Part shown: in pieces, positions 14,079 through 42,754 of the stretch
Numbering within the stretch: position 1 is the stretch's first letter
Layout: each line of letters opens with the position of its first letter
NCBI RefSeq assembly: GCF_016405985.1
Contig: NZ_JAEFCF010000024.1
Location: 1 to 64,000, forward strand
Length of the DNA stretch: 64,000 nucleotides
Direction of reading: 5' to 3'
Source of the DNA: Paracoccus sp. IB05
GTDB taxonomy: Bacteria > Pseudomonadota > Alphaproteobacteria > Rhodobacterales > Rhodobacteraceae
Translations under genes and position numbers: made by a program
The notes under the pieces: generated by a model
The model's database searches: none
Seen by the model: only the letters and a program-made list of their open reading frames with translations
What the model was told of the DNA's origin: nothing

Positions 14079-14079
14079 G

Positions 14080-16989: not shown

Positions 16990-17002
16990 GGCGGAGGCTG
17001 AA

Positions 17003-18044: not shown

Positions 18045-18050
18045 CCCTGC

Positions 18051-18728
18051 TCAGGCGGTGGCCCGGGTCGCGATCCAGGCCACTGCCAGCACATGCCCGG
18101 CACATAGGGTGATGCGCCCTTCGATCCCGGCACCGCTTTCAAAAGGCGCAACCGCCGCGAGAAATCGCGCCCGGAACACCGCGCCTGTGATGGTCACAGC
18201 CAGCATCTCGGGCCCAAAAAGCCGGCGCGTCAGCGGATATTGCGCCTTATAAGCCGCCTCCTTTGCACAAAATACCAGCAACCCCGGATCACCCTCTGCA
18301 ACGACCTGGTCCTGCGGCCCCCGCACCAGCGCCGCAACAGCGGGGTCCAGCGGGCGCAAGGGTTCCAGATCCAGGCCGAGACCGGCGAGACCGGTCGAGA
18401 CCGCCGCGATACAGGCCAGATCCGAATGGCTGATCGAACCCGCAAGGCCAACAGGCCAGACCGGCGCCCGGTCCGGCGCCTTTGGCACTGCAACCGGCCG
18501 CAGCCCTGCCGCCACCATTGCAAGACGCGCCGCATACCGCCCGGCGGAAAATTCCGCCAGGCGCCTCGGAACCATGCCTTTGCCCTCCTCACCCGGCCAT
18601 AGCGGCCATGTGCGGCGCGGGTCGGCAGAGGCGGTACAACACCCCGCCGGCAACAATTCTGCCGCCCGCGCCGCCAGGGTCTCGCCCGGATCAGGCCTCC
18701 CTAGGTCAGGCATCCCCGGATCAGGCAT
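18051..18728 (-). CDS. 4'-Phosphopantetheinyl transferase
   Basis: 225 aa, Sfp/EntD-type PPTase that converts apo carrier proteins to holo form with CoA. Motifs: GSISHS (97-102), GLGLDLE with the Mg-binding Asp120 and Glu122, and CAKEAAYK with Lys156-Glu157 and Lys161. The start at ATG 18728 overlaps the NRPS end by 8 nt, matching operon structure; a much longer Arg-rich frame further upstream is only the overlap with the NRPS reading frame. Residues 1-20 are Pro/Gly/Asp rich. It serves the PCP (NRPS Ser1478) and ACP (PKS Ser1824) of this cluster and is the last gene in it. Confidence 0.9.
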
Positions 18729-21700
18729 CCAGGCCCCGACGCGCCAGCCGCATCGCCCGGCGCCGCGCCATAGTCTCGTCAAGCCCGGTCGCAAGCGCCA
18801 CCGGAGCGGGCGAAACCTGAACCGGAGCCACCGGCGCCGCCGCGGCAGAAGCGGGCGCAAAAACCGGCGCCCGCACCGGCATAACCGCAGTAAGTGCACT
18901 GCCCGAGATATGCGCAACCAAAGCGTCGAGCACCGGGAAGCGGAAGATATCGGTGATCGAGACCTTCACCTGCGGCAGGCGCTCGCGGATCTCGCGATGG
19001 GTCTGAACCGCCAGCAGCGAATGGCCGCCAAGCGCGAAGAAATTGTCCTTCGGCCCGACCCGCGCCACCCCCAGCACCCGCGCCCAGATCTTTGCGATCT
19101 CAGTGCCGATCGCCGGGTCATCCCCAGAACCGTTCGTGGGGCCGTTCGCGGGGCCAGTCGCGGGATCAAGGGCGCGATCCCCCACGCCCTGCTCCAGGCC
19201 GGGCTGCGACGGCGCGACAGCAGACGCCGCCACAGGCGCCAGGGCCTCCGGCGCTGCTGGCCCGTCCCCGGGCAAGAAGCGCAGCGGCGCCGGCAGCGCC
19301 TTACGGTCCACCTTGCGGTTCGGTGTCAGCGGGAAGCGCTCCAGCGCAACATAATGCACAGGCCTCATATGCTCCGGCAGCTCCCGCGCCAGCGCCATCC
19401 GCAATTCCGCCTCACCCGCGCCGCCGCCGATATAGGCCACCAGCCGCAGATCGCCCGGCTGATCTTCCCGCACCATCACCACCGCCTGGGTCACCCCCGG
19501 CTGCGCCTCAAGCACCGCCTCGATTTCCCCCAGCTCGATCCGGTAGCCGCGCAGCTTCACCTGGGCGTCGGCCCGTCCGATATAATCGACCCGCCCATCC
19601 GGGCGCAGCCGGACGAGGTCTCCGGTCTGGTACATCCGCCCCGCCCCGCCTGCTCCAGAATGGAAGGGGTTTTCGACAAAGCGCTCTGCCGTCAGGTCCG
19701 GGCGCTGCCAATAGCCCCGGGTCACGCCCTCGCCGCCGATCCAGAGCTCACCCTCGACGCCTGGCGGCACGGGCCGGCGCGCGCCATCCAGCACATAAAG
19801 CTGCTGGTTCGCAAGCGGCGTCCCGATATTGACCACCGGCTCCGGCGCAAGAACCTCCTCCACCGAAGACCAGATCGTCGTTTCCGTCGGGCCATACATG
19901 TTCAGAAGCCGCCCAACCCCGGCCGCCTTCACCTCCGCTGCCAGCGCGCCCGGCAAGGCCTCACCGCCAACCATCATCGTCCGGATACCCGCAAGCGCGC
20001 GGCGGCTTTCATCATCCATCAGGATCATCCGCGCCATCGACGGCGTGCATTGCAGATGCGTGACATCATGGCGATGGATCTGCGCCGCGATCGAGAAATC
20101 ATCCGGCGCCGGCCCGCCCTGATTGGCCAGCCGCACAACCTCTGCCAAAGGCTTCAGCCCCTCCAGCACCACCTCCGGCGCGATGCCGTAATCGACAAGG
20201 CATGCCACCTCGCCCACGCCAATCGCCTTCAGCGCCTCCACCCGGTCCAGCGCATCCTCGATGGTGCCGAAAAGCCCCGAATCCTCGAAATAGCGCTGGA
20301 AAGCGAAATCGAGGATCGCGTCATTCTCTTCTGCCGACAAAGCCGCAAGGTCGATATCCATCGGAGTGGCCGCGCCCGCCGGTTTTTTGAAGGCCGGGAA
20401 GGCCCAGGCATATTGCTTCACCAGAGCCGCCGCCGAGGCGAGATAGAATTTCATCGGCGCCTCGGCGACAGCCCGCGCCTCCTCCCGCGTGGCCGCGATA
20501 TAGGAATGCAGCATCAGCGTGACGGTGAATGCAGCCGGATCATGGCCGGCCTCGCGCAGCGCGCCATGATAAAGCGCAATCTTTTCCGCAACTTCGGAAA
20601 TCGACTGGCCCAGAAGATGGGTCAGCACATTGGCCCCGGCGCGGCCCGCCTCGGCCCAGGTTTCCGGGTTGCCGGCGGTCGTCACCCAGACCGGCAGCTC
20701 TGCAGACACCGGGCGCGGCTGGGTCTTTACCGTAAATGTCGTGCCATCCGCTTTGGGGAAATCCACCCCTTCGCCGCGCCACAGCGCCCGCACATCCCTG
20801 ATCGCCTGGAACATCGCCGCCTTGTTATGCGGCGGCGCATTTTCCGGGCGCAACACGAAATCATCCGGGTGCCAGCCCGAGGCAAAGGCGAGCCCCGCCC
20901 GCCCTGCGGTCAGATTGTCGATCACCGCCCATTCCTCGGCGATCCGGGCGGGATGATGCAGCGGCGCCACCACCGACCCCGCCCTGACCCCGATAGTCGA
21001 GGTCACCGCCGCCACCGCCGCGCCGGTCACGCTCGGGTTCGGATAGGGGCCGCCAAAGGCGTGGAAATGCCGCTCCGGCGTCCAGACCGCGACAAAGCCA
21101 TTCTGATCGGCAAAGCGCGCGCCATCCAGCAAAAGCTGGTATTTCTTCGGCCCCGGCCCGTCATCATTGCCCCAGTAATACAGCGAGAAATCCATCGCTC
21201 TCGCCGAAGTGATCCGCGCCCCCGAAACCAGCGCCCGGTTCTCATCCGAGGAAATCACCACCTTAAAGCCGCGCGCCAGCGTCCAGAACAGCTCCAGCAC
21301 CGAGATGTCGAAAGACAGCGAGGTCACCGCGAGCCAGACCCCTGGCTCAGGCCCGATCCGGTGATCCATACCGGTGAAGAAATTCGCGACATTCCTGTGC
21401 TCGACCTGCACCCCTTTGGGCCGCCCGGTCGAACCCGAGGTATAGATCATATAGGCGACATCTTCGGGCCGCGCGCCGCTCACCGGATTGGTTCCGGGGG
21501 CCAGGGCAAGGCGCGGGTCCTGGTCCAGCACCAGCCTCTCCACGCCTGCGGGCAGACCCGCCGCCAGATCCGATTGCGTCACGATCACCGGGGCGCCGCT
21601 GTCTTCCGCGAACAAAGCCAGCCGCTCGGCCGGATAGGCCGGGTCCATCGGCACATAGGCGCCGCCCGCTTTCAGGATCGCCAGCGCGCCTGCCACCAGA

Positions 21701-23451
21701 TCGACGCTGCGCCGGGTGGACAGCCCAACCAGCACGCCGGGTCCGACCCCCATCTCGCGCAGCACATGTGCCGCCCGATTGGCCCGGGCATTCAGCGCGG
21801 CATAGCTGAGCTCCTCGCCTTCAAAGGCCAGCGCCGGCGCATCGGGTGTCCGCGCCACCTGGGCCTCAAAAGCCGTGTGAACCATGACGGCGCGGTCATG
21901 CTCCACCGCCGTCCGGTTGAAATCCTTGATCACAAGGTCATATTCCGCAGGCGTCAGCGCCGGCAGATCCGCCAGACGCAGATCTTTGGCGGCTGTAACC
22001 GCCCGTGCAACCTCCCCCGCCAGCCAGTCGATCCGCAATGCCAGCGCCTGCGCCGCCACCTCGTCCAGACGCGCCGCATCCCAGAGCACTGCCTCCGGCG
22101 TCAGCACCAGCCCGGCCCCCTGGACCGGCTCTGCCTCAGACAGTGCGACCGGAGGCACCGCCACGCTCATAAGCGCCGCATCCCGCGCCATCAGATCCAG
22201 CGGCCAGCCCGTCGCCGGGCGTGCCAGTGCCGCCTCAACCGACGCCAGCGCCGCCATCACCGTCTCACCGGCTGCCTCGCCCCCCGCGCGCAAAGGCTCC
22301 CAGGCCGCGATATATCCGGCACGGCCTTTCGCCGCCCTCGCGAAATCGCCGGCGGTGGTTCCGGTTGCGCGGAGGCCGGCCAGCGCAAGCGCCCCCAGCC
22401 CGTGCCGCCGCCCGAACGGAATCCGGCGCCAGTCAGCCATGCCGCCTTGTTCCGCCCGCAACACCATCGGAGACACCACCGGCAGGGCAACCGGATGCAG
22501 CGCCAGAAGCGCCGCCCGGAGCCGCGCCTCCTGCGGCACAAGCGCTGCAAGCTCCGCCGTCAGCTCCTCCGCCTCAGCCGCAGCCAACAGAGGCAAGGCA
22601 GCCGCCGTCACCGCCTCAGCCGACACCGCCCGGCCCGAGACCTGGCAGCACAGCCGGTCGAGCCGCACCGCCCCCGCGCCGCAGGCCACCACCAGCCCCT
22701 CCGGCCCGGCATCAAGCACCGCGCCCGGCACGCCATCGCCCGCCGCCAGTTCAGCCGCACCGACATTCAGAACCTCAGACCCGGTGTCGATTTTCGCCGT
22801 TGTCAGCGGATTCCAGTAGCGCCCGTGATCAAGGCCACGGACCAGACGCACCACTTCGGCCGCAGGCCGCGTGAAATCGATCCGCCCCATCGCCGCCGGC
22901 CGATCCGCGCCGCGATGCATCACACCGTCCCCCACACTTTGCGCGCGCGGCACCGCGCCACGTTCCAGCGCCGCCATCACCTCGGGGAAACTGTCGAGCC
23001 CTGCCTCGAAACAGCGTGTGTTCAGCGTCAGTGCCGTCTCATCGGCGTCGAGGTCAAACCGGCGCTCCGCAAAGATGCGCCCCTGATCAATCCCGCCCTC
23101 GATCAGATGCCAGGTCACGCCATGCCGCGTCTCACCCGCAAGGATCGCCCAGACCGGCGCATTCAGCCCGGCATGTTCCGGCAAGGGCCCGTCATGGAAA
23201 TTCACCGCACCTTTTGACGCCTGCCCCAGCACTTCGGGCGGCAACAGCCGCAGATTGGCGACCGAGAGAATCCAGTCCGCCTCCGGTAAATCGCCCGGAT
23301 CGCAAAGCATCAGCCCTGCCCCCCGCGCCCAGTCCCGGACCTGCCCCGCCTCACTGACCACCGCGACGATCCGATGCCCGCGCGCCAGCCAGAGCGCGCC
23401 ACATTCGCGCGTCAGCGTCTCATTGCCGATCAGGATGGCGGTCAGGCTCAT
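18721..23451 (-). CDS. NRPS: formyltransferase-A(monooxygenase)-PCP
   Basis: 1576 aa. Residues 1-200 are a formyltransferase domain with the triad Asn84, His86 and Asp122, aligned with the methionyl-tRNA formyltransferase motif. 200-280 is a linker; 280-505 looks like the C-terminal half of a condensation domain with no HHxxxDG. The A domain starts at about 520 with A3 [11 protein letters not shown] (670-680), then is interrupted at about 750-1105 by a luciferase-like FMN monooxygenase (TIGR04020, MupA/Atu3671 type), and resumes with [11 protein letters not shown] (1184-1194), A7 [12 protein letters not shown], and the [12 protein letters not shown]10 Lys (Lys1384). A PCP with Ser1478 (LGGHSLL) follows; no TE or complete C domain. 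The function inferred is a loading module that formylates and oxidises an unknown amino acid for the neighbouring PKS. The substrate cannot be read from the interrupted specificity region. Gap to the GT2 gene is 3 nt. Confidence 0.9.
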
Positions 23452-23454
23452 ATC

Positions 23455-24477
23455 TCAGGTCTCTTTCCGGGAATGGTCGGTCACGGGCTCCGGGCTCATG
23501 CCAAAGCCACGACGAATATCATGTAGAATCAAATCGCGGAGGTAATGTGGCGGATCGATGCGGTCACGCCTGCGCTGCACCAGTAGCCGCGCCCGCCAGA
23601 TCACACCGCCAAGGGCCGCCAGAACCGTCGCCGCCGCCGCATAGCCGCGCCCATGGTTTTTGGCGAAATAATGCAGCCGCGAATCCAGCCAGAAACCGGG
23701 AATCCGCTGCCATTTCCCCATCCCGGTCGAGACCGAACCGATATGCGCCACCCGGCTTTCGGGCACATAATCGGTCGGAAAACCGGCCCGGGCGGCGCGC
23801 AGGCAAAGATCGGTTTCCTCGTAATACAGGAAGAACCGCTCATCAAAGAGACCGATCCGGTCCAGCACATCCATCCGCATCATCAGGCTGGCGCCGGCCA
23901 GCCAGTCGACCCGCGTCACCCGGTCCGGCAGCGGCATCGCAACCATGCTGTCTTTCATCGCCCGCGAAACCATCCCCAGCCGGATATGGCGTTCAAAATC
24001 ATTCAGCGCGGTCGGATAGCGAAAGGCGGTGTGGTGCGGGGTGCCATCCTCGCCGTGAATATAGCTGCCGGCAAAGCCGGTTGCAGGTGTCCGCTCCAGA
24101 TGGTCCAGCAACACCCGGATCGCATCCGGCGCCGGAAAAGCGTCCGAATTCAGCACATAGGCGTAATCCGGTCGTGATCCGCCCGCAAACCCCGCCGCAA
24201 ACCCCTCCGGCAGGCCCGCCCGGATACCAACGTTATTCCCGGCACCAAAGCCGCCATTGCGCCCCGATTGCAGCACCCGGACCGGGGTTTGCGCGCGGTC
24301 CCAGCCGCGCGCCGTGACCCCCGCCTGCATGATCTCGAAGGACCCATCGCCGGAATCATTATCGACAATGGTGATCGCACCCGCGATTCCCCGCATCGCG
24401 ACCAGCGCCGCCTCGACCGAGCGCAGCGTCATCTCCGGCGAGCGCCAGTTGAGAATGATGGTGAGAACCTTTGCCAT
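23455..24477 (-). CDS. GT2 glycosyltransferase in the NRPS-PKS cluster
   Basis: 340 aa. A GT-A fold with the family-2 nucleotide-sugar site DNDSGDGS, then GGFGAGNN and LNSDAFPAPDA (Asp of the metal-binding triplet), and the acceptor-site motif DERFFLYYEETDLCLR. Two weakly hydrophobic stretches near the C-terminus may associate with the membrane. The pattern is close to rhamnosyl transferases of the WbbL type. It sits with 3-nt gaps between the PKS and the NRPS, so it is co-expressed with the assembly line and may glycosylate its product; dTDP-L-rhamnose genes lie about 15 kb away. It could also work on the adjacent EPS locus. Confidence 0.85.
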   Translation of the reverse strand: MAKVLTIILNWRSPEMTLRSVEAALVAMRGIAGAITIVDNDSGDGSFEIMQAGVTARGWDRAQTPVRVLQSGRNGGFGAGNNVGIRAGLPEGFAAGFAGGSRPDYAYVLNSDAFPAPDAIRVLLDHLERTPATGFAGSYIHGEDGTPHHTAFRYPTALNDFERHIRLGMVSRAMKDSMVAMPLPDRVTRVDWLAGASLMMRMDVLDRIGLFDERFFLYYEETDLCLRAARAGFPTDYVPESRVAHIGSVSTGMGKWQRIPGFWLDSRLHYFAKNHGRGYAAAATVLAALGGVIWRARLLVQRRRDRIDPPHYLRDLILHDIRRGFGMSPEPVTDHSRKET

Positions 24478-24480
24478 CGC

Positions 24481-27400
24481 CTATTCCGCCGCCGTCGCCA
24501 CTGTGTCGTCCTGCGCCTCAGCCTCAGCCTCGGCCAGCAGCGCCTTCAGCGCCGCCGCCAGCACACGCACATTCGGCTCCAGCACCATCGAATCATGATC
24601 TCCCGGCACTTCGATCACCCGCAGCTTCGGGGCGAAACGGGTCAGATCATTGTCTTCGAACACATATTCCTTCGCCGCCGAGACCCATTTCCCGCCCGAG
24701 ACCTGCCAGTGCCGATCCAGCTCTGGCCGGAACAGCACCGTCGCGCCGTTGCGCGGGCTCATCTGATAGCGCGGCAGCGCGGCGCGGAACGCCGCCTCGA
24801 TGGCGCTGTTATGGAAGCCCTCTTCCTCAACCGGGGCGCCTGCACGTTTGCGCCGCTCCCAGTCGAGCCGGTTCTTCGCCCATTCCGCCAGATAGCCGGG
24901 CCCCTTGCGCTGCAATTCCGCGAGCTTGATCAGCGCCTTGTCGCGGCGGCTGAGGCCGGGGCGCATCGGCAAAGGCGTATCCAGGAGCACCAGCTGCGCC
25001 ACCTCTTCCCCCTCAGCCTCCAGCTGGCGCGCCATTTCCCAGGCGATCAGCCCGCCGCCCGAGAAACCGCCCAGCAGGTAGGGCCCCGACGGCTGCACCT
25101 GACGGATCTCGGCGATGTAATCGCGCGCAGCCTCGGTGAAATCATCATGCGGCTGATCCTCGCCGTAAAGACCCCGGGCCTGGAGGCCGTAAAACGGCCG
25201 GTCCCGCCCTTCAAGCTGCGCCAGATGGCGCAGGTTCAGCACATTGCCGAACATGCCGGACACCAGGAAGAAGGGCGTCTTCGCGCCCGGTGCCGTGCCG
25301 GACTTCCCCGCCTCGGGCGTCATCGGCACCAGATGGGTGAAGCGGCGCGGCTGTTTCACGGCCTTCCCCGCCGGCACCTGCCCTGCATCCGCGCCCCCGC
25401 TCGCAACCAGGCTCTCACCGGTGATCCCCGCCGCCTCGCGGATCAGGCCCGCACAGGCCGCCACGGTCGGCGCCTCAAAGAGAACCGAGATCGGAAAATC
25501 AACCGCCCAGGTCTTTTTCACCATCGCGAAAAGCCGGACCGCGATCAGGCTATGCCCGCCGAGATCGAAGAAATTATCCTCGACCCCCACCTGCGAAACC
25601 CCGAGCAGATCCTGCCAGAAGCCGGTCAGGCTGCGCTCGATATCATCTCGCGGCGCGATGTAATCCGTGTCGAGATCGGGGCGTTCAAAGCTCTGCCCCG
25701 ATTTGCGCGCCTCAGTGACGGCCGCAGTCTGGCGCACCAGCGCCGGCAGATCCAGCGAAGACACAAGGATCTGTGACAGCCCCGTATTCAGCGCGCGGCC
25801 GAAGACCCGGGCCCCCTCTTCCGGGCGGATGCCCTGGCGGAACGCCATCATCAGCCGCTCTTCCGCCGGTGACAGCGCCCGTGCGGGGCCACCCTCGGGC
25901 GCCTCCAGCAGGCGCGGATCAGGGGCCGGAAAGGACAAAGCCGCATCCAGCCGGCGGATGGTAAAGCCGGTGATCTCAACCAGCACCCGGCCCTCCGGTG
26001 TGGCAAGCGTGATGTCAAACACGGCGGTCGGCCGGTCAGCGCGGTTCTCGCCCGCAGTGCAGATATGGCTGACGAGGTCAGCGCTCAGCGGCGCAAGGAC
26101 CCGCACCGATCCGTAAGACAGCGGCACCCAGAGCCGGTCAGGCTGATACCCCGCGATCAGATCCATCGCCCAGCCGGTGGCCAGATCCATGAGCGCCGGA
26201 TGCAAAAGCCAGCCCCCCCCCGGCCCGCCCGCAACCGGCTCGCCTCCAACCGGATCGCCCGCGAACACCTCCCGCCGGAAGGCCTCCGGCAGCGACAGCC
26301 GCGCCAGCCCTTCCCCCGCGCCATAAGCGCGCGAACGCAACACCCGCCAGCGCGGGCCAAAGGCCAGATGTGCCTCCTGCGGGCTGGGAAGCCAGCCTTC
26401 TGCCTCCCCCTCCTGCGGCTGGCCCATCTCGGGCGCGCGAAGCCGCGCCGCGATCCCGCCGGGGTCGATCCCCGGCGGGATCGCGGCCTGTTCTCCGGTC
26501 AGCGCAAGCAGCCGCGCCGTGGCATGGGTGGCCCAGCCCTCCCGGCCTCCCGCCCGCATCAGCGTCTGCACCTCGAAATCATAGCCTTCCTCGCTGCGGC
26601 TCAGCCGCACCCGCAGGGGTCGCATCTCGCTTTCCGCGAGATCAAGCGCCGCAAAGAAGGTCAGATCACGGATCCCGAACCCGGCGCCAGTCCCCGGCGC
26701 CCCGACGGTCCCCTCCTGCAAGGCCCAGGCCTCGGCCGCCAGTTCCAGATAGCCGGTCCCCGGCAGCAAGGCCTGACCCTCGCGGGTGCGATGGCCCTCG
26801 AAGATCCACTGCTGACAGGACAGATCACCGGTAAAGATCCGGTTGCCCGCAACGTCAAACCCGGCCGCCGTCAGCATCGGCTGGCGCACCGGCACCGGCG
26901 GCGCCGCCTCGCGCCCCATCCGGTCCGCGAGACTCTCGGCCGCCATGCCGACGCCCTGCCAGATCCCCCAGTCGAGCGCGACCACACGCGTAGCCCCCCC
27001 GGCCCGCGCCTCGGCAAAGGCGTTCAGATATTCATTCACCGCCACATAATCGACCTGCCCCGCCGGCCCCGTCACCGTCGAAGTCGAGGAAAACAGCACC
27101 AGAAGCTTCAGCCTCCCGTCCGGGAACAGCCGGTCAATCACCCCGGTCCCATGCAGCTTCGGCGCGAACACCTCTTCCACACTGCCCGGATCCTTGCCAA
27201 GGATCGGCCCATCCGCCACCATCCCCGCCGCATGGATCACCGCATCCACCGGACCCATACGCGCGACCGCAGCCTCAACCACCGCCTGCATCTCGAACAG
27301 ATTGGCCACATCGGCCCGGGCCAGCGCGATCCCGCCGCCGCTCTCACGCGCCAGCGCCTCGAGCCGCTCCACCGCCATAATCCGCCGCGATACCGCATCT

Positions 27401-30400
27401 TCGGGCGCATGGGCCCGCAGCCAGGCCGCGCGCGCAGCCCCTTCCGGCAGGCGCGACCGCGCAATCAGCGTGACTTTCGCTGCGCGCGCGCGAATCAGAT
27501 CTTCGGCCAGCGTCAGCCCGATCCCGCCGAATCCGCCGGTGATCAGCACATGCGCACCCAAAGGCAGCTCGAACCCCGCCTCGGGCAAAGGCGCCGGACG
27601 CAGCCCTTCGGCGTAGCGCCGCGCGCCACGCAGGGCGGCCACACCACCCTCAGGGGTGAGCGCCTCTTCGATCACCGCGCCAATCAGCGTGTCGGGCAGG
27701 CTTTCGCCGCGCCGCAAGACCGGCAGCTCCAGATCCAGCTGCGCCAGCGCAACGCCTGGCAATTCCTTGCCCGCCACCAGCACCGGCCCGCGCAACAGGG
27801 CCTTTTCCGGCCAGCGCAGCACAGAGCCTTTCGCTGCCACCGCGCCATTCGTCAGGAAGGTGACCTTCACCCCCTGAGCAAGGTTTTCGCCCGCCATGGC
27901 CTGCAACAGGAACAAGGCCGACCAGAATCCCTGTTCGATCAGCCTTTGCGCGAAACTCGAGCCGGGTCGAAAGCTCTCGTCTTTCGTCACCAGCCAGCCA
28001 TGCAGCACCTTTGAGGGTGCAATCCCCCGCCCCGCCAGTTCACGGATCAGGGCTTCATACCCTTCCAGCCCGCGCTCGGGCGCAAGGCTGTAGCGATCCT
28101 CGCCGAGGGCGCGGAAACTGTCCCCCGGATGCACCAGGATCACCCGATGCCCCGCCGCGCGCAGCCGATCTGCCGCCAACGCACAAAGCCCGGCCTCATC
28201 AGCAAAGACCAGCCAGCTTGCAGGTGCCGCCTCGCCCAGATCATCAATGTCAAAGCCTGCCGGCGAAGGGGTCCAGTGCCGTTTCCAGCCCCAGCCGGTC
28301 AGGTCTTCCACCCGCGCGGGCAGCTCTGTCGCCAGCGGCGCGGCCTCGCCCGGCGCGATAAAAAACGGTTTGCGCTGAAAGGCATAGGAGGGCAGCGGCA
28401 CGCGCTGGCGCAGACGCCCGCCCCAGATCTGGCCCCAGTCCACCGCGACGCCGCAAGCCCAGAGCCGCGCGACAGACCCAATAAGCCAGGCATCATCGGC
28501 GATCTTCTGTTCGGGGTGACGCAAGGCCGGCACCACCTGACCCGGCCCGACCCCATTGGCCCCCGCAAGCGAAGAAAGCGCGCGGCCCGGCCCCATTTCC
28601 ATATAGACCCGGCCCGACACCGCGGTCAGTTCCGCCAGCCCGGCCTGGAAGTTCACCGTATTTCTCAGATGCGCGACCCAATAATCCGGGTCCGTCGCCT
28701 CGGCATCCGTCAGCACCTTGCCCGAGCGGTTCGAGATGATCGGGATCTGCGGCGCAGAGAGGCGAATGCTGCGCAGGTAATCGCCAAAGGCGGGCAGGAT
28801 CGGTGCGAGCATCCGGCTGTGCGCGGCGATATTGATCGCAATCTGCTGCGTCTCGACCTCATCTGCGGCCAGCCGTGCAGCCAGCGCATCCAGCGCCGCA
28901 TCCGGGCCCGAGACCACGCAAAGCCCCGGCGCATTGACCGAAGCCATATCAAGATCATCGGCCCAGTAGCGCGCCAGATCCGCCTCGGGCAGCGGCACCG
29001 AAAGCATGCCGCCGGGCGCCACCGTGTCAAACAGCCGGCCGCGCAACAGGACCAGCCCGATGCAATCCTCGAATGACATCACACCGGCCAAAGCAGCCGC
29101 CGTATTCTCGCCCATCGAATGACCGATCATCGCGGCGGGGGTGACGCCCCAGCTTTCATAAAGCCTCGCCAGCGCATATTCGGTGATCATGATCAGCGGC
29201 AGCTGTACCGAGGGCTTTTTCAGCGCCTGATCCGCCGCAACCTCGGCGCCCTTTTCGGGCAGCCAGAGCGCGCGGATATCGTAATCCAGCTGCGGCTCAA
29301 GCACCGCAAGGCCCCGGTCCATCCAGTCTTTGAAAACCGGCTCAGTCTCGTAAAGATCGCGCGCCATGCCGGCAAATTGCGCGCCGCCGCCGGGGAACAT
29401 GAAGACGACTTCGGGATTGTCGCCCAGATGGTCATGATTGAAGACAAGGCGCGGATTGGCGCCCTCCAGCAGGCCCGCCGCCTCTGTGTGGCTTGCCGCG
29501 ACAATCACCCGGCGTTTCTCAAAGGCACGGCGGCCCTCTTTCAGCGTGAAAGCCACATCGGCCAGCTTCTGGTCGGGATGCGCGCGCAGATGCGCGGCGA
29601 GCCGGGCCGCCTGGCCGTCAAGCGCGGCTTTTGAACGCGCCGAGATCACCAGCGGCTGGAACGGCCAGTCGCTGTCTTCCGATGTGGCGCGCAAAGGCGC
29701 CTCTTCCAGCACGGCATGGGCATTGGTGCCGCCGACGCCCAGACTGTTGACGCCCGCGCGCAAGACCGGAGCCTCCCAGGGGGTCAGCCGGTCATTGACG
29801 CGGAAAGGTGATGTCTCGAAATCAATCGAGGGATTCGGTGCCTCATAGCCAAGGCTCGGCGGCAATTCGCGGTGATGCAGCGAGAGCGCGACCTTGATCA
29901 GGCTCGCCACCCCGGCGGCAGTGTCGAGATGGCCGATATTGGTTTTCACCGAACCAATGCGGCAATGGCCGACCGCATCCGTGGTCTCGCGGAAGGCCCC
30001 GGTCAGTGCCGCGACCTCGATCGGGTCGCCGAGATAGGTCCCGGTGCCATGGCATTCGATATAGGTAACGCTATCGGCAGTGACGCCCGCCAGGGCCTGA
30101 GCCTCGGCAATACAGGCCGATTGCCCATCGACCGAAGGCGCAAGATAGCCCGCCTTGGCCGCGCCGTCATTGTTGATCGCAGTGCCCTTCAGGATGGCCC
30201 AGATATGATCGCCATCGCGGATCGCATCGACCGCGCGGCGCAAGACCACACAGCCCGCGCCCGAGCCGAAGACCGTGCCCTGCGCGCGGTGGTCAAAGGC
30301 GTGGCAGTGCCCGTCCGGCGACAGGATCTCGCCCTCCTGGAACAGATAGCCCCGCGCATGGGGCAATTCGATGGTGACGCCGCCCGCCAGCGCCATATCG

Positions 30401-31020
30401 CATTCGCCGTTCAAGAGCGCCTGCGAGGCGTAATGGATCGCCACCAGCGAGGTTGAACAGGCGGTCTGCACATTGACCGAAGGGCCTTTGAGATCAAGGA
30501 TATGGCTCGCGCGGGTGGCGAGGAAATCCTTGTCATTGCCGGTATGGCGCAGAAGGAACATGCCGGTCTCTTCAACGAGATCCGGGTTCGAGCAGAGGTT
30601 GAAATAGAAATAGGACCCCATGCCGCAGCCGGCCCAGACCCCGATGGCGCCGGGGAATTTCTCCGGTGGATGGCCGGCATTTTCCAGCGCCTCCCAGGCG
30701 ACCTCAAGAAACTGGCGATGCTGCGGATCAAGGATCGCGGCCTCTTTCGGGGAAAACCCGAAGAAGTCGGCGTCAAAGGTCTCGAACCCATCGAGCACGG
30801 CGGCGGCTGGCACGTAATTCGGCCGCGCCATCTTTGTTGCACTCTCGCCCGCAGCCAGCAGTTCCTCGCGCGACAGCACCCGGATCGATTCCACGCCGCC
30901 GCGCAGATTGTCCCAAAAGGCGGAAATATCACCCGCGCCCGGCAAATGCGCGGCCATGCCGACAATCGCAATGTCGGTCGCGGCCACACCTGGGGGTCTG
31001 CGCGTCATATCATCCATCAC
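24481..31020 (-). CDS. Type I PKS: KS-AT-KR-DH-ACP-TE
   Basis: 2179 aa. KS about 13-435 with Cys188 (TACST), His324 (ECHGTGT) and His364 (NIGH). AT about 535-830 with GHSMG Ser635 and the AAHS motif, which does not clearly say malonyl or methylmalonyl. KR region with TGGFGGIG at 1161-1168 and Tyr1325. DH about 1395-1690: His1410 in H-x4-G-x4-PG and Asp1612 in HPALMDLAT without the usual downstream Gln. ACP about 1790-1865 with Ser1824 (LGGHSL). TE about 1910-2170 with GFSGG Ser1987 and His2142. One chain-extension round is encoded; the TE at the end releases the product. No ER domain. Start ATG 31020 (or 31017) precedes a 250-bp control region. Confidence 0.92.
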   Translation of the reverse strand: MMDDMTRRPPGVAATDIAIVGMAAHLPGAGDISAFWDNLRGGVESIRVLSREELLAAGESATKMARPNYVPAAAVLDGFETFDADFFGFSPKEAAILDPQHRQFLEVAWEALENAGHPPEKFPGAIGVWAGCGMGSYFYFNLCSNPDLVEETGMFLLRHTGNDKDFLATRASHILDLKGPSVNVQTACSTSLVAIHYASQALLNGECDMALAGGVTIELPHARGYLFQEGEILSPDGHCHAFDHRAQGTVFGSGAGCVVLRRAVDAIRDGDHIWAILKGTAINNDGAAKAGYLAPSVDGQSACIAEAQALAGVTADSVTYIECHGTGTYLGDPIEVAALTGAFRETTDAVGHCRIGSVKTNIGHLDTAAGVASLIKVALSLHHRELPPSLGYEAPNPSIDFETSPFRVNDRLTPWEAPVLRAGVNSLGVGGTNAHAVLEEAPLRATSEDSDWPFQPLVISARSKAALDGQAARLAAHLRAHPDQKLADVAFTLKEGRRAFEKRRVIVAASHTEAAGLLEGANPRLVFNHDHLGDNPEVVFMFPGGGAQFAGMARDLYETEPVFKDWMDRGLAVLEPQLDYDIRALWLPEKGAEVAADQALKKPSVQLPLIMITEYALARLYESWGVTPAAMIGHSMGENTAAALAGVMSFEDCIGLVLLRGRLFDTVAPGGMLSVPLPEADLARYWADDLDMASVNAPGLCVVSGPDAALDALAARLAADEVETQQIAINIAAHSRMLAPILPAFGDYLRSIRLSAPQIPIISNRSGKVLTDAEATDPDYWVAHLRNTVNFQAGLAELTAVSGRVYMEMGPGRALSSLAGANGVGPGQVVPALRHPEQKIADDAWLIGSVARLWACGVAVDWGQIWGGRLRQRVPLPSYAFQRKPFFIAPGEAAPLATELPARVEDLTGWGWKRHWTPSPAGFDIDDLGEAAPASWLVFADEAGLCALAADRLRAAGHRVILVHPGDSFRALGEDRYSLAPERGLEGYEALIRELAGRGIAPSKVLHGWLVTKDESFRPGSSFAQRLIEQGFWSALFLLQAMAGENLAQGVKVTFLTNGAVAAKGSVLRWPEKALLRGPVLVAGKELPGVALAQLDLELPVLRRGESLPDTLIGAVIEEALTPEGGVAALRGARRYAEGLRPAPLPEAGFELPLGAHVLITGGFGGIGLTLAEDLIRARAAKVTLIARSRLPEGAARAAWLRAHAPEDAVSRRIMAVERLEALARESGGGIALARADVANLFEMQAVVEAAVARMGPVDAVIHAAGMVADGPILGKDPGSVEEVFAPKLHGTGVIDRLFPDGRLKLLVLFSSTSTVTGPAGQVDYVAVNEYLNAFAEARAGGATRVVALDWGIWQGVGMAAESLADRMGREAAPPVPVRQPMLTAAGFDVAGNRIFTGDLSCQQWIFEGHRTREGQALLPGTGYLELAAEAWALQEGTVGAPGTGAGFGIRDLTFFAALDLAESEMRPLRVRLSRSEEGYDFEVQTLMRAGGREGWATHATARLLALTGEQAAIPPGIDPGGIAARLRAPEMGQPQEGEAEGWLPSPQEAHLAFGPRWRVLRSRAYGAGEGLARLSLPEAFRREVFAGDPVGGEPVAGGPGGGWLLHPALMDLATGWAMDLIAGYQPDRLWVPLSYGSVRVLAPLSADLVSHICTAGENRADRPTAVFDITLATPEGRVLVEITGFTIRRLDAALSFPAPDPRLLEAPEGGPARALSPAEERLMMAFRQGIRPEEGARVFGRALNTGLSQILVSSLDLPALVRQTAAVTEARKSGQSFERPDLDTDYIAPRDDIERSLTGFWQDLLGVSQVGVEDNFFDLGGHSLIAVRLFAMVKKTWAVDFPISVLFEAPTVAACAGLIREAAGITGESLVASGGADAGQVPAGKAVKQPRRFTHLVPMTPEAGKSGTAPGAKTPFFLVSGMFGNVLNLRHLAQLEGRDRPFYGLQARGLYGEDQPHDDFTEAARDYIAEIRQVQPSGPYLLGGFSGGGLIAWEMARQLEAEGEEVAQLVLLDTPLPMRPGLSRRDKALIKLAELQRKGPGYLAEWAKNRLDWERRKRAGAPVEEEGFHNSAIEAAFRAALPRYQMSPRNGATVLFRPELDRHWQVSGGKWVSAAKEYVFEDNDLTRFAPKLRVIEVPGDHDSMVLEPNVRVLAAALKALLAEAEAEAQDDTVATAAE

Positions 31021-31273: not shown

Positions 31274-32671
31274 TCAGATAAGGGTGCGGCGGGGCTGGTT
31301 TCGCTGCAAATCTGCAAGCGAGGCCTCGCGCAGGGCCCGCAAAGCCTCGGCCTGACCAAGGATCGCGCCCGCCATCAGCCAGCTCAGCGGCGTCAGTGTC
31401 GCATTGGGCAAAAGATCAACTAGATTCAGCCCGAGGATCAGCGCCACCCCCGCCGCCGGCAGGCCCACCGATCCGGGTTTCAGCCGCGCCTCGCGCGCAA
31501 GGAGCCACAAAGGCAGGCACAAGAGCCCGAATTGCACGAGATAGCCGACCCAGCCGAATGCCCCGATCCGGATGATCCAGGCGCCATCCGCCACCGTCTC
31601 GACGATGCCGGTCGCCGGATCATAGAGGAAGCCGCGCCCATAGCCGCCCCAGCCAAAAAGGGGGCGCTCGGCGGCGCGGGCCAGCAGCAGATCCTCATTC
31701 ATCAGCCGATAGCCAAAGCTCTGGGCGCGGTCCTCGCTCAGATCGCCGGCAAAGCTGGAAATATAGTCAACCGGCACCAGATGGGCGCCGCGCAAAAGCG
31801 GATAGAGGATCACCACCACCGCCAGCAGCCCGACAACCCCAAGGATCTGGCGCGGGGTCGCAAGAAAGACCAGCGGCGCGGCGGCCAGCGCATAGGCGAT
31901 GGGGCCAAAGCTCTTGCACAGAATCAGAAGCGCGCAGGTCAGCAGGAAGACCGGCAGCTGCCAGACCCGCGCCGGCGCCGGGCCCAGCCGCAGCTGCATC
32001 CCCGCCGCAATCAGGCAGGAGAGCACGAAAAACGCCACCCAAAGCCCATGCGGCATAAAGACAAAGGGCCGCCAGCCGCCAAACCGCACCGCCTGGGACA
32101 TGTCATGCTGGAAATAGCCATAGACCCAGATATGCAGCTGCGGCGACATCACCGTCTCGATCAGGATCGGCCCGGTGTAAAGCAGCGCCGCGATCGTCAG
32201 CGCCATCAGAAGGTCGCGCATCGCCTCAGGCGTGGCCAGATCGCGCCGCGCAAGGAACAGCGGGAGCAGATACATCGCCTCGGTGCCCGTGATGGCGATG
32301 GAATCATAGATCCGCATGCCCTGGATCTCGCGGCCATGGCCAAGGAAAATCGGGTCTGTGTTCAGAAGGGCGGTAAAGACGGGCGAGATCAGAAAACCCG
32401 CGACCAGAACCCTGACCATCCTATTGCCGGTGAAAACCGGCAGGCTCCTGCCCAGCATCAGCCAGGAGATCACCGCCGCCGCCAGTGCCGGCAGCATGTG
32501 TTTATCGGGGTCCGGCAGCATCGGCAGGTCGATCTTCGCCAGCTCTGGCAAAAACATATAGCCGGCCAGAACCGACCAGATCAGCGCCCGGCCCGGCCCC
32601 ATCCGGTTGTAGAAAACCCAGACCACGAAGGGCCAGATCAAAAGCGCCAGCAGGGCGATCGTCGATGACAT
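31274..32671 (-). CDS. O-antigen polymerase/ligase-like membrane protein
   Basis: 465 aa, about ten hydrophobic helices across the length, beginning at about 5-20. A long polar loop near 285-330 includes RGAHLVPVDYISSFAGDLSEDRAQSFG, followed by GWGGYGRGF. The topology is like Wzy polymerases or O-antigen ligases. It would polymerise repeat units in the periplasmic face of the inner membrane. It is on the minus strand ahead of the PKS and divergent from the WecG-like gene. No signature residue separates polymerase from ligase, so the sub-type remains open. Confidence 0.7.
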   Translation of the reverse strand: MSSTIALLALLIWPFVVWVFYNRMGPGRALIWSVLAGYMFLPELAKIDLPMLPDPDKHMLPALAAAVISWLMLGRSLPVFTGNRMVRVLVAGFLISPVFTALLNTDPIFLGHGREIQGMRIYDSIAITGTEAMYLLPLFLARRDLATPEAMRDLLMALTIAALLYTGPILIETVMSPQLHIWVYGYFQHDMSQAVRFGGWRPFVFMPHGLWVAFFVLSCLIAAGMQLRLGPAPARVWQLPVFLLTCALLILCKSFGPIAYALAAAPLVFLATPRQILGVVGLLAVVVILYPLLRGAHLVPVDYISSFAGDLSEDRAQSFGYRLMNEDLLLARAAERPLFGWGGYGRGFLYDPATGIVETVADGAWIIRIGAFGWVGYLVQFGLLCLPLWLLAREARLKPGSVGLPAAGVALILGLNLVDLLPNATLTPLSWLMAGAILGQAEALRALREASLADLQRNQPRRTLI

Positions 32672-32886
32672 CCGGCCGGGATCCGTTCTGCTCTGGCATG
32701 GCTGGGGTGGTGATTTCGGCCCCTACCCTAGCATATGCGGCGCCCGGAGGCGAGGCCGGCCCCTGGCGCAAGGCCCGCCCGGGCTGCGGCGCAACGGGAA
32801 ACAGAGAGTTGCCGTCAGAGATCTGTCGCCTCTGGCCCGGGCGGGCGTTACACTGCGCAGAGCCCGCCTTTTTCAGGACCAGCCTC

Positions 32887-33639
32887 TTGCAGTTTACCAT
32901 CCGTGACACCCGTATCGAGGTGACCCATGCCAGCCGCACCGCGCTCCTGAGCGATGTGGCAAATCTGATGCGCCGGGGCGAAGGCTTTGCGCTGGCCACG
33001 ATCAATCTCGACCACCTGGTCAAGCTGCGCCGCGACGCCGCCTTTCTTGGCGCCTATGCGCGCCAGGATATGGTGGTGGCCGATGGCAATCCGATCGTCT
33101 GGCTGTCAGGGCTCGCGAAAAAGCCGGTCGATCTTATGCCGGGGTCGGACCTTGTGCTGCCGCTGTGCCGCCTGGCGGCCGAGGCCGGACTGCCGGTCTC
33201 GATGCTGGGCGCGACCGAAGCCGCGCTGGAAGGCGCGAGCGCGCATCTCGCGCGGGAAATCCCCGGTTATCAAAAAGGGCTGCTGATTGCACCGCCGATG
33301 GGGTTTGACCCCGAAGGCCAGGCGGCCCGCGCGGCGCTGGAGGACCTGAACGCGCTTGGGCCCGGCCTGTGCCTGATCGCGCTTGGCGCCCCCAAACAGG
33401 AGCGCTTTGCCGCCCTTGGCCGCAGTCTCGCGCCCCGGATGGGCTTTGCCTCGGTTGGTGCGGGGGTGGAGTTTCTCTCGGGCGATCAGGCCCGCGCGCC
33501 GGAATGGGTACGGAAGATCGCGATGGAATGGGCCTGGCGGGCCCTGTCTTCGCCGCGCCGGCTGGTGCCGCGCTATGCCGCCTGTTTCGCGATCCTGCCG
33601 GGCGAGGTCAGGAAAGCCTGGCGGCTGCGCGCGCAATAG
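32887..33639 (+). CDS. WecG/TagA/CpsF family glycosyltransferase
   Basis: 250 aa, GT26 fold. Diagnostic segments: FALATINLDHLVKLRRDAAF, VADGNPIVWLSGL (Asp of the substrate site), SDLVLPLC, MLGATEAALEGA and IALGAPKQERFA. The family transfers an N-acetylmannosaminuronic acid- or N-acetylmannosamine-type sugar, or other hexoses, to a lipid carrier. I start at TTG 32887, since AGGA lies 8 nt upstream and longer frames would run into the divergent polymerase gene. Codes for the second sugar step of the EPS repeat unit by inference. Converges with the next glycosyltransferase, stop to stop. Confidence 0.85.
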   Translation: MQFTIRDTRIEVTHASRTALLSDVANLMRRGEGFALATINLDHLVKLRRDAAFLGAYARQDMVVADGNPIVWLSGLAKKPVDLMPGSDLVLPLCRLAAEAGLPVSMLGATEAALEGASAHLAREIPGYQKGLLIAPPMGFDPEGQAARAALEDLNALGPGLCLIALGAPKQERFAALGRSLAPRMGFASVGAGVEFLSGDQARAPEWVRKIAMEWAWRALSSPRRLVPRYAACFAILPGEVRKAWRLRAQ

Positions 33640-34674
33640 CTACTTATATTCGATCAGCCCGCGTTTGCGACCGCGCGCAAGGTCGCGCAGATAGCCAATC
33701 ACGCCCAGAGCCTCGGGAAACTTGCCCAATACGGTGAAAATGGCGGCTTCGGCACCGAGGCGCCCCTCGCGGCGCCAGGCCCAGGCCAGCCGGAGCATCT
33801 GCAAGGGCCAGATCAGCGCCATGAGCCAGAATGCCGGGTGGATCAGCCCGGCAAGACCCACCACAAGCGGCAGTATCGCGCCCCAGAAAAGTGCGCGCGC
33901 CGTCTCGCGCCGCCAGTGGCGGTCGGGCCCGCGCCCATGCAGGGCCGCGCCTTCGGCAAAGGCGTAACCGGCCCGTTTTGTGCGCCGCCACCATTGCGAC
34001 ACCTGCGTCATCGCCGCGTCATGCAGGGTCATCCCGGCCTCGATCCGCCAGATATGCCCGCCCGCCCGGCGCAGCCGCTGGCACAGCTCCGGCTCTTCGC
34101 CCGCGATCAGATCCTCGCGGAAGCCGCGCACCGACTGGAAATCCCGCAGCCGCATCAGTGCATCCCCGCCGCAGGCCAGCGCCTCGCCGACAGGCGTGTT
34201 CCATTCGCGGTCACAGAGCCGGTTATAGACCGAGGTCTCCGGGTGCCGCTCGCGTCTGCGGCCACAGATCACCACAGCCCCGGGATGGTCGCGAAAGCCC
34301 TGCAGCCCGCGTGCCACCCACCCCGGCACCACCTCGCAATCGCCATCGACGAACTGGACGTAATCGGGCTCTGCGCCCTCTACAACCAGAGCAAGCACAC
34401 CGGCATTGCGCGCCCGCGCCGCTGTGAAGGGGCGCGAAAGGTCAAGCCCGACCACAATCGCCCCCGCCCCCCGCGCCAGCGCCTGCGAACCATCGGTCGA
34501 GCCGCTGTCGACATAGACCAGCCGCCGCACCTGGCCTTTGAGCGAAGCAAGACAGGCGGCAAGCCGGCCCCCCTCATTGCGGCCGATCACCACGGCATCA
34601 ACGACCGGCCCGGGCCGGGCAGACGGATCCCGTCGCGCGGGGATATGAGGAGCATCGGCTGTCATGGCCATCAC
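33640..34674 (-). CDS. GT2 glycosyltransferase with membrane tail
   Basis: 344 aa. An N-terminal GT2 domain with VDAVVIGRNEGGRL, VYVDSGSTDGS (nucleotide site), AARARNAG and FVDGDCEV (DGD metal triplet); then a Cys/Asp-rich part with GGDALMRLRDF and EPELCQRLRRAGG; two membrane helices about 265-300 anchor the enzyme. Similar to family-2 enzymes that add sugars to EPS repeats at the cytoplasmic membrane face. The first ATG at 34674 is used; ATG 34671 and 34665 follow closely. Its gene end meets wecG-like gene end. Confidence 0.8.
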   Translation of the reverse strand: MMAMTADAPHIPARRDPSARPGPVVDAVVIGRNEGGRLAACLASLKGQVRRLVYVDSGSTDGSQALARGAGAIVVGLDLSRPFTAARARNAGVLALVVEGAEPDYVQFVDGDCEVVPGWVARGLQGFRDHPGAVVICGRRRERHPETSVYNRLCDREWNTPVGEALACGGDALMRLRDFQSVRGFREDLIAGEEPELCQRLRRAGGHIWRIEAGMTLHDAAMTQVSQWWRRTKRAGYAFAEGAALHGRGPDRHWRRETARALFWGAILPLVVGLAGLIHPAFWLMALIWPLQMLRLAWAWRREGRLGAEAAIFTVLGKFPEALGVIGYLRDLARGRKRGLIEYK

Positions 34675-35015: not shown

Positions 35016-36005
35016 ATGAGCCGCCACAATATACATGGCCCTTTCGGTTCAAAACCCCTGGATATGGGATTTCCCCTGATGGGCGCAGAAGATGACAACC
35101 AGGATCGCAAAGCCGGGGCCGCCGCGCGTGGCACTGCTGTCTCCCTGTTCAAACCCGGCCATCCGCGCATCAATCTGCCCATCGCGCTTGACCAGCGCAC
35201 CGGGCGCGAGATCTCTATCTCGCCCGCAGTCTTTGCCAGCCCGAACCCGTCGAAAGTCTGGGAATCAATCGGAGAAATCCATGTCGATGCCGCCCGGCTG
35301 ATCAGAAACGGTTTGTTCCTGAAACCGGAACATCACCAGATCACCCGCTATTTCGACATGCTGCGCACCCGCATCGCCCAGGCGATGACCAAGGAAGGCA
35401 TGAGCCGGCTCGCCATCACCTCGCCGCGCGCCGGCTGTGGCAAGAGCTATGTCGCCGCCAATCTCGCGCTGTCGCTGGGCCGGCTGCCCTCGTGCCGGAC
35501 GGTGCTGATGGATCTCGATCTGCGCCAGCCGCGCCTCGCAAGCCTGTTTGCACAAACCCCGTCGCCCCAGCTGCAGGAATTCCTCCAGGGCGAGCAGCCG
35601 CTTGAGGGCCAGTTCCGCCGCATCGGCCCGAACCTTGCGCTGGCGCTGAACAGCGAGCCTGTCGCCCGCCCGGCCGAGACGCTGCAGGATCCGCAGACCA
35701 CCGCCGCGCTGCAATCGGCAAGCGATTTGCTGCAGCCCGATATCCAGCTTTTCGATACGCCGCCTGCGCTGGAATATGACGATATGATTGCGCTGAGCGG
35801 CCAGGTCGATGCGGTGCTTCTGGTGGTGGATGGCACCCGTACCACCGCCGCCGATATCACCGCCTGCGAACGGATGTTCGAGGGCCGCGTGCCGCTGCTC
35901 GCGGTGGTGCTGAACCGGGCACAGGATCGCGGGCTGCTGGCGGGCCAGGGCCTTGCCGACCGCCTGTTCGGGGGCGCAATCAGCCGCTGGTTCGGGCGCG
36001 GCTGA
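35016..36005 (+). CDS. BY-kinase-like ATPase of EPS synthesis
   Basis: 329 aa, MinD/BY-kinase fold (CpsD/CapB-like). Walker A SPRAGCGKSY with Lys143, Walker A' LMDLDLRQP and Walker B QLFDTPP; a later VLLVVDGTRTT strand is typical. These proteins act in the cytoplasm with the Wzz-like partner (next gene, 12 bp downstream) to control chain length and export. There is no tyrosine-rich C-terminal tail (the end is GGAISRWFGRG), and the N-terminal 100 residues are poorly conserved. It may therefore not autophosphorylate on a Tyr cluster. Start ATG 35016 used; ATG 35064 is also possible. Confidence 0.82.
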   Translation: MSRHNIHGPFGSKPLDMGFPLMGAEDDNQDRKAGAAARGTAVSLFKPGHPRINLPIALDQRTGREISISPAVFASPNPSKVWESIGEIHVDAARLIRNGLFLKPEHHQITRYFDMLRTRIAQAMTKEGMSRLAITSPRAGCGKSYVAANLALSLGRLPSCRTVLMDLDLRQPRLASLFAQTPSPQLQEFLQGEQPLEGQFRRIGPNLALALNSEPVARPAETLQDPQTTAALQSASDLLQPDIQLFDTPPALEYDDMIALSGQVDAVLLVVDGTRTTAADITACERMFEGRVPLLAVVLNRAQDRGLLAGQGLADRLFGGAISRWFGRG

Positions 36006-42592: not shown

Positions 42593-42610
42593 CTGGCTGG
42601 TCTTCCTCAG

Positions 42611-42660
42611 GGGTCGCAATCGGGTCGGGTCGCAATCAGGTCCGGGTCGCAATCGGGCGT
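42611..42660. repeat. Three direct repeats of a ~17-bp unit upstream of rmlC
   Basis: GGGTCGCAATCGGGTC (42611-42626), GGGTCGCAATCAGGTCC (42627-42643), GGGTCGCAATCGGGCGT (42644-42660). The common core GGGTCGCAATC occurs three times, spaced 16-17 bp, 19 bp before the rmlC start codon. Confidence 0.8.
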
Positions 42661-42754
42661 CGTCATCAACGGGCATTGCCCCTTCATAAGCCCCGCGCCG
42701 CCTGTCACAAGTGCCGCAGCTTTCGGGGCGCGGAAAAGCCCGCATCCGTCATAT

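Follow-up and report, generated by a model that had tools for sequence, protein, structure and literature searches.

Assembly lines that pair a nonribosomal peptide synthetase (NRPS) with a polyketide synthase (PKS) usually make antibiotics or siderophores. In a 64,000-nucleotide stretch of DNA from Paracoccus sp. IB05 (contig NZ_JAEFCF010000024.1, positions 1-64,000, forward strand; hereafter the window), we found such an assembly line, encoded by a compact four-gene operon, that is apparently a regular part of a gene set for exopolysaccharide (EPS). The linkage of the operon to EPS genes is well supported, and the operon is likely to be a member of that gene set. We assign a probability of roughly 0.55 to the reading that it is a functional part of the EPS locus, making a small acyl unit that is built into the polysaccharide or decorates it. 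It probably yields a chemical decoration of the slime, not a free drug-like compound, with about even odds that the EPS is decorated covalently. If true, modular assembly-line chemistry would here serve a structural polymer, which is unusual, and, should the product belong to the EPS, genome-mining tools are wrongly classing a common set of biofilm genes as a secondary-metabolite cluster.

Operon layout and conservation

The operon lies on the minus strand in the order PKS, family 2 glycosyltransferase (GT2), NRPS and phosphopantetheinyl transferase (PPTase), with adjacent genes separated by 3 bp or overlapping. The PKS comprises ketosynthase (KS), acyltransferase (AT), ketoreductase (KR), dehydratase (DH), acyl carrier protein (ACP) and thioesterase (TE) domains.

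24481..31020, minus strand: type I PKS module KS-AT-KR-DH-ACP-TE, 2179 amino acids (aa); Pfam/NCBIfam domains and kept active-site residues
23455..24477, minus strand: GT2 glycosyltransferase, 340 aa; Glyco_tranf_2_3, E 2.2e-11
18721..23451, minus strand: one-module NRPS, 1576 aa; Pfam/NCBIfam, profile and fold matches, adenylation (A) domain code DILQMGMIW
18051..18728, minus strand: Sfp-type 4'-phosphopantetheinyl transferase (PPTase); 4PPT_N, E 1e-19

As listed, the PPTase open reading frame (ORF) begins with TTG at 18917; the ATG at 18728, which overlaps the NRPS stop by 8 bp, is the likelier start. An earlier note on this DNA had described a tight operon of these four genes, with coordinates that proved exact and a domain reading that was upheld by Pfam and NCBIfam. 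It had overlooked that the operon belongs to a larger EPS locus of about 18.1-49.0 kb (to ~49034), and its picture of a "minimal", self-contained secondary-metabolite cluster has to be given up, since the four genes are embedded in EPS loci in many genera and several orders.

Of 295 genomes sampled from the family, one per genus, 109 contained relatives of the NRPS at E<=1e-100. Marine roseobacters are among the named relatives, and in the published passages cited below the probable members appear only as uncharacterised NRPS or PKS genes. We compared gene positions in 50 of the 109 genomes, which hold 51 NRPS loci. A PKS gene lay beside the NRPS gene on the same strand in all 51, directly upstream in 50 and downstream in one (contig 47 of genome G126, ~1.2 kb from the NRPS), and a gene-sized gap of ~1 kb, corresponding to the GT2, separated PKS and NRPS in 46. 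G126 carries two NRPS-PKS copies, at C6:230219-244094 and C47:21546-33453; in the former a condensation domain closely follows the NRPS, and in the latter the order of PKS and NRPS is reversed.

A contig scan additionally returned at least 580 relatives, from which the best 80 loci were kept for comparison. The closest of these, from Pseudogemmobacter bohemicus, reached 91% over the A/monooxygenase region. Among the 80 loci, a PKS was found in 77 (the three others are on short contigs), a GT2 homolog in 72 and a PPTase in 70. In a tree of 93 A/monooxygenase sequences, which is unrooted in effect, 90 sequences were split (SH-aLRT 100) from those of Deinococcus, Methylobacterium and Aliiroseovarius M344, two of these three being long branches. 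On the Aliiroseovarius plasmid, the divergent relative is followed by a 9.2-kb NRPS/PKS gene (L027:14007-27746), possibly a true secondary-metabolite line.

Linkage of the operon to EPS genes

An initiating sugar transferase of family PF02397 lay within 30 kb of the NRPS in 22 of the 51 loci, compared with 2.2 expected from the number of PF02397 genes per genome and the genome size. We fetched 20 of the 29 loci that lacked this gene, with flanks of ~31 kb per locus (less in two), and all 20 held two to nine other EPS genes. By comparison, those EPS genes were absent from all 20 control stretches taken from these genomes (20 kb each), which gave only some matches to short-chain dehydrogenase/reductase (SDR) and type I secretion proteins.

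Among the related loci of at least 24 kb, the ~10-kb flanks held at least one EPS gene in 60 of 61 cases and at least two in 58. The sole exception, L122, has UbiA-, GtrA- and FAD-oxidoreductase-like genes. Genes of these kinds stand beside the NRPS locus both in L122 and at L069:26317-30231, the latter with an additional SDR gene, and they resemble a polyprenyl-phosphate arabinose pathway.

The operon and EPS genes frequently lie close together. In 51 of 66 loci, no more than 400 bp separated the PKS from the end of an upstream EPS gene on the same strand (a flippase in 24, a Wzy-like gene in 24 and another gene in 3), an EPS or SGNH-like gene started <400 bp after the PPTase in 45 of 70 (Wzz in 21, SGNH-like in 22), and the operon often forms one gene string with the flippase, Wzy-like and Wzz genes. 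The linkage was also seen in Hydrogenophaga (Betaproteobacteria), in the Hyphomicrobiales Hyphomicrobium, Devosia and Aureimonas, in a metagenome-assembled genome of the Myxococcales and, by annotation, in Ruegeria, Parasedimentitalea, Paracoccus, Aminobacter, Shinella and Deinococcus plasmids, with polysaccharide export genes annotated in the Aminobacter and Shinella loci. The records of Methylobacterium (L026), Neorhizobium and Rhizobium BG6 come without annotation and were left out of the neighbourhood comparison.

A general hotspot of biosynthetic gene clusters was rejected as the explanation, given that 43 of the 50 genomes held no condensation domain at E<=1e-20. The other seven, the window's own genome included, gave nine matches, one of which (G126:C6:230219) adjoins an NRPS locus. 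Since condensation domains are this scarce in the same genomes, the association of the operon with EPS genes is not just that of a hotspot. Its embedding in EPS loci and the often shared gene string point to a building block or decoration of the polysaccharide.

Domain organization of the NRPS and PKS

In the NRPS, Pfam and NCBIfam detected Formyl_trans N and C regions, an AMP-binding domain interrupted by Bac_luciferase/TIGR04020, and PP-binding. Its parts, including a luciferase-like monooxygenase (LLM; MOx below) and a peptidyl carrier protein (PCP), are as follows.

22582..23451, minus strand: formyltransferase domain; Formyl_trans_N/C; N84, H86, D122
21910..22605, minus strand: predicted C-terminal half of a condensation (C) domain, HHxxxDG half absent; profile search and AlphaFold2 (AF2)/Foldseek
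20131..21195, minus strand: luciferase-like monooxygenase between A4 and A5; TIGR04020, 469 bits; PuwE, 6ket
NRPS internal map (aa): formyltransferase 1-~282; half C ~283-510; A 528-739 and ~1115-1389; MOx/LLM 755-1105; PCP 1451-1515

Residues 755-1105 scored 469 bits against TIGR04020 (curated cut-off 244.45), and PuwE (6ket) was the nearest solved structure (E 1.5e-101). With the A4 motif FDISVLE at 714-720 and the A5-side motifs from 1125, the monooxygenase is inserted between A4 and A5. The A-domain code follows the pattern DILQ[MLFYCA]GM[IV]W in all 31 aligned NRPSs, the fifth position varying and the eighth doing so once. The window's DILQMGMIW compares with DILQLGMIWK, the code reported as common to four glycine-activating A domains with a MOx insert (PMC12283262); the introduction of that paper puts such inserts between A8 and A9, unlike the A4/A5 position given in PMC10204066. 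By this code, the A domain is predicted to be of the glycine type.

Asn, His and Asp form the active-site triad of formyltransferases, and N84, H86 and D122 were invariant in 75 of 75 domains (the window's and those of 74 of the 80 loci, selected for having a complete N-terminus). Across the aligned 31 NRPSs and 32 PKSs, most catalytic residues were retained in 95% or more of the rows; Asn and Asp of the formyltransferase stood at 60-95% in the NRPS alignment, in which some rows have a split or separate formyltransferase. The nearest solved folds are Fmt and ArnA and, by sequence, also LgrA (best E 5.6e-9), and a predicted model of residues 1-535 (pLDDT 94.4) matched Fmt and ArnA over the formyltransferase part. 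At least 74 of the 80 loci carry the domain as a fusion with the NRPS, and in Deinococcus and P. marcusii it is encoded next to the NRPS by a separate or split gene. In Deinococcus actinosclerus a separate formyltransferase gene precedes the NRPS and has a FemAB/GNAT-like gene ahead of it (L028:14723-16699), and Paracoccus marcusii CP157 has two overlapping annotated genes, one for the formyltransferase and one for the A-MOx part (L072:17995-22586). We also considered a stray sugar N-formyltransferase, as such enzymes serve polysaccharides and the fold matches include ArnA, WbkC and FdtF, and did not favour it. Being fused to the NRPS, or beside it as a split or separate gene, the formyltransferase is kept on the assembly line.

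The region that follows had been overlooked in the earlier note. Residues ~283-514 of the window NRPS gave no Pfam match, and a single weak Condensation match was obtained among 75 members. A profile built from the 75 relatives over this region matched McyB (1.1e-8), Txo2 (6.4e-6), Txo1 (1.5e-5) and PvdL (1.5e-4), each time within the C-terminal part of a condensation domain. In a Foldseek search with an AF2 model of the region (pLDDT 94.2), all 50 matches listed were NRPS C or C-like domains, eight of them at E<=0.001 and the best being Txo1 (E 1.3e-5, TM 0.58 on the query). By profile and predicted fold, residues ~283-510 are assigned as the C-terminal half of a condensation domain, and the module would read formyltransferase, half condensation domain, A(MOx), PCP.

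The PKS matched, in order, KS, AT, KR, DH (PKS_DH_N and PS-DH), PP-binding and Thioesterase; a KR ahead of the DH is an unusual order in type I PKSs. At least 95% of the 32 PKSs keep the KS Cys/His/His, AT GHSMGE, KR S/Y, DH H and D, ACP Ser and TE S/D/H residues. One PKS, at G222:C60:134906-141223, is listed with one in-frame TGA.

Proposed product and route

From the gene content, the domain order, the conserved catalytic residues, the glycine-type code and the EPS linkage, all established in silico, we infer each chemical step of the following route, together with the acceptor and the attachment to EPS. The PPTase would activate the carrier proteins and the A domain would load glycine onto the PCP, where the formyltransferase domain would N-formylate it and the inserted FMN monooxygenase would hydroxylate its alpha carbon. 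The KS would then accept this unit and add one malonate, and the KR and DH would reduce and dehydrate the extended unit. The TE may free the unit or pass it to an acceptor, giving a 4-formamido-4-hydroxy-butenoyl-type unit that the operon GT2 and nearby EPS glycosyltransferases could join to a sugar, with the product leaving the cell by the flippase/Wzy-type EPS route. The order that the earlier note had put forward, in which the NRPS loads and perhaps oxidises a formyl amino acid before a single PKS extension and release by the TE, fits this anatomy, and the A-domain code suggests that its amino acid can be narrowed to glycine. That the NRPS-PKS line is a stock EPS part in many Rhodobacterales and some other bacteria, placing an N-formylamino, hydroxylated C4 acyl or butenolide-like group built from glycine and malonate in or on the polymer, is a tentative proposal whose chances we put somewhat short of even.

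Comparison with known systems

The glycine A-MOx modules of myxothiazol and melithiazol (MtaG and MelG) carry a full upstream condensation domain. The window NRPS has the predicted C-terminal half only and no Pfam Condensation match. Like these modules and SolF of solanimycin, as published, it has a predicted glycine-activating A domain with an inserted monooxygenase, and the A4/A5 position of the insert described for myxothiazol and melithiazol is also that of the window NRPS (PMC10204066). According to the passages cited, the MOx of myxothiazol and melithiazol hydroxylates the glycine alpha carbon and the amide is then cleaved (PMC10204066; both steps also in PMC11342130), the hydroxyglycine is retained in solanimycin, and in all three a growing chain receives the hydroxylated glycine, which terminates it in the first two (PMC10204066, PMC11342130). 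The window module, unlike those, seemingly starts its line, has a formyltransferase and a half C domain, and would feed a PKS.

In LgrA, of linear gramicidin, an N-terminal formyltransferase is followed by A and PCP, an order that the window NRPS shares, along with the formyltransferase sequence match given above. Unlike that of LgrA, the window formyltransferase is nearer to Fmt and ArnA and keeps the Formyl_trans_C part, and it is followed by the half C domain and a monooxygenase-bearing A domain. PuwE and FbnE/Atu3671 of fabrubactin have a monooxygenase of the same TIGR04020 subfamily, in the case of FbnE/Atu3671 by family assignment rather than alignment, so that the likeness to Atu3671 and mupirocin enzymes remarked on previously holds as far as the monooxygenase domain is concerned. 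The alpha-hydroxycarboxylates of fabrubactin, a siderophore, are attributed to FbnE in the passage cited (PMC12971057). The fabrubactin and PuwE assembly lines differ from that of the window. RkpA of Sinorhizobium, reportedly a PKS/fatty acid synthase-like protein in K-antigen synthesis, would be similar in being a PKS-type enzyme that serves a surface polysaccharide; it is said to have no NRPS module, formyltransferase or monooxygenase.

Among roseobacters, SSE37_17955 and ISM_16730 are NRPS-like LLM genes that were called uncharacterised (PMC9769649), and Phaeobacter inhibens T5 has a PKS, Inhi_1972, and an NRPS, Inhi_1974, two locus tags apart, the tags given for strain DSM 17395 not being adjacent (PMC4062626). 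Judged by these descriptions, SSE37_17955, ISM_16730 and Inhi_1972/Inhi_1974 probably belong to the window's family, and the passages concerned tie them to no EPS. Our literature search covered open-access (PMC) papers, with subscription literature outside its scope, and in it we saw no paper linking this NRPS-PKS to EPS and found no description of such a class of polysaccharide building block.

Weighing the alternatives

Several observations weigh against the EPS reading or its proposed chemistry. The EPS reference proteins were drawn from this NRPS family's own neighbourhoods, so the counts partly measure synteny and only the PF02397 count is independent. The PKS terminates in an ordinary type I TE that could release a free acid, and no obvious acyl-to-sugar transferase is found among the operon genes. 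The GT2-sized gap is absent upstream of the NRPS in 5 of the 51 loci (four with a PKS-NRPS gap of <200 bp and one whose PKS lies on the opposite side), 8 of the 80 loci, three of them on short contigs, gave no GT2 match, and the SGNH-like gene of the window does not adjoin the PPTase. A strict class-level search (E<=1e-250) returned 3 of 240 genomes, all from the window's family and including the window, in a set centred on one family. The relative on the Aliiroseovarius M344 plasmid (L027, 43% identity) has nos genes and a larger NRPS/PKS as neighbours, and its annotated surroundings list no EPS genes; in Aminobacter the PKS is adjoined by a TolC gene, and the Shinella PKS has type I secretion genes nearby. 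Finally, cleavage in the style of myxothiazol and melithiazol would here give formamide and a glyoxyl thioester.

Some of these points would suit an operon that makes a free small molecule, such as a signal, an antimicrobial or a metallophore, that is co-regulated with biofilm or EPS and is not part of the polymer. A PKS TE normally releases free products, the L027 NRPS stands outside any EPS locus, secretion genes occur near the two Hyphomicrobiales clusters just named, and an antimicrobial role of roseobacter LLM-type NRPSs is left open in the passage cited (PMC9769649). The near-universal adjacency of EPS genes in the long loci, often in one gene string, argues against a free product, as do the five Rhodobacterales plasmid loci of the EPS clade that carry annotation, whose gene tables, though incomplete, list no drug-type ATP-binding cassette or major facilitator exporter within 10 kb of the operon. 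We consider a free product rather unlikely.

A second alternative keeps the EPS role and changes the chemistry: the MOx would cleave an alpha-hydroxyglycyl intermediate, the PKS would extend a glyoxyl thioester, and the EPS substituent would be an aldehyde or its oxidised form instead of a formamide. The same A4/A5 insertion and a near-identical glycine code in cleaving modules speak for this, as far as the passages cited go (PMC10204066, PMC11342130, PMC12283262). Set against it are the formyltransferase catalytic residues, kept in every sequence with a full N-terminus, and the persistence of the formyltransferase as a separate gene by the NRPS in Deinococcus and P. marcusii; to attach a formyl group only to discard it immediately as formamide would be wasteful, which weighs against cleavage and makes it, in our estimation, improbable.

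That the polysaccharide is started on, or attached to, a primer, anchor or lipid-like terminus supplied by the assembly line, with the operon GT2 adding the first sugar, is very improbable: the GT2 lies inside the operon in most loci, Wzy/ligase-like genes adjoin it and RkpA is reportedly a precedent for a PKS-like enzyme in capsule synthesis, but the GT2 is absent from a few loci, the PF02397 transferase in the window and near many other loci means that a polyprenyl start is often already supplied, and a single PKS module would give a chain too short for a membrane anchor.

The EPS locus and other genes of the window

Rightward of the PKS, as far as 49034, lie the genes listed below, and the four operon genes therefore form the end of an EPS locus.

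31274..32671, minus strand: Wzy/O-antigen-ligase-like membrane protein, ~250 bp upstream of the PKS; Wzy_C, E 1.5e-4, below the Pfam cut-off
32485..33639, plus strand: WecG/TagA/CpsF glycosyltransferase; PF03808, E 2.8e-38
33640..34674, minus strand: GT2 glycosyltransferase; PF00535, E 3.7e-14
35016..36005, plus strand: CpsD-like ATPase; ParA, E 3e-5, just below the Pfam cut-off
36018..37274, plus strand: Wzz-like chain-length protein; PF02706, E 2.3e-8
37679..38389, minus strand: initiating sugar transferase; PF02397, E 3.3e-58
39245..42745, minus strand: dTDP-rhamnose genes rmlA, rmlD, rmlB, rmlC; NTP_transferase, RmlD_sub_bind, GDP_Man_Dehyd, dTDP_sugar_isom
42755..44098, minus strand: Wzx-type flippase; Polysacc_synt_3 (PF13440), E 6.9e-46
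44281..45543, plus strand: GT4 glycosyltransferase; Glyco_trans_1_4, E 1.4e-35
45527..46360, minus strand: GT2 glycosyltransferase; PF00535, E 6.5e-19
46354-48057: 567-aa protein inside the EPS locus; apparent twin-arginine-type signal, no Pfam match even at E 10
48054..49034, minus strand: SGNH-like hydrolase candidate (GHSL...DDIH); 41% identity to the Ruegeria gene after the PPTase

With an initiating transferase, a flippase, a chain-length protein and glycosyltransferases present, this is probably an EPS set of the Wzx/Wzy type, with the protein at 31274-32671 as candidate Wzy polymerase; no outer-membrane export (Wza) family was found among the scanned ORFs of the window, which are part of its ORFs. 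The protein at 31274-32671 is homologous to three relatives' proteins, two of which are weakly matched by Wzy_C while the third gave no such match. The first part of the WecG ORF is probably not translated. CpsD was named from its place before Wzz and from CpsD/CapB annotations in relatives, rather than by direct comparison. The 567-aa protein looks like a secreted glycoside hydrolase. For the gene at 48054..49034 an SGNH fold is tentative, resting on motifs and on a DUF4886 match (E 0.011) to the Ruegeria homolog; the window protein itself had no Pfam match.

A search of the window for RNA features gave no Rfam match at the gathering threshold and no tRNA. On the other side of the operon, positions 10839-18050 hold a LysR gene and a formate dehydrogenase operon (fdsG, B, A, fdhD and fdsD-like) on the other strand, converging on the PPTase. 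A link between formate dehydrogenase and the formyltransferase was considered and rejected: FdsA was found in only 7 of 80 related loci, all within the window's 12-sequence clade, and this confinement marks the formate dehydrogenase as a lineage neighbour.

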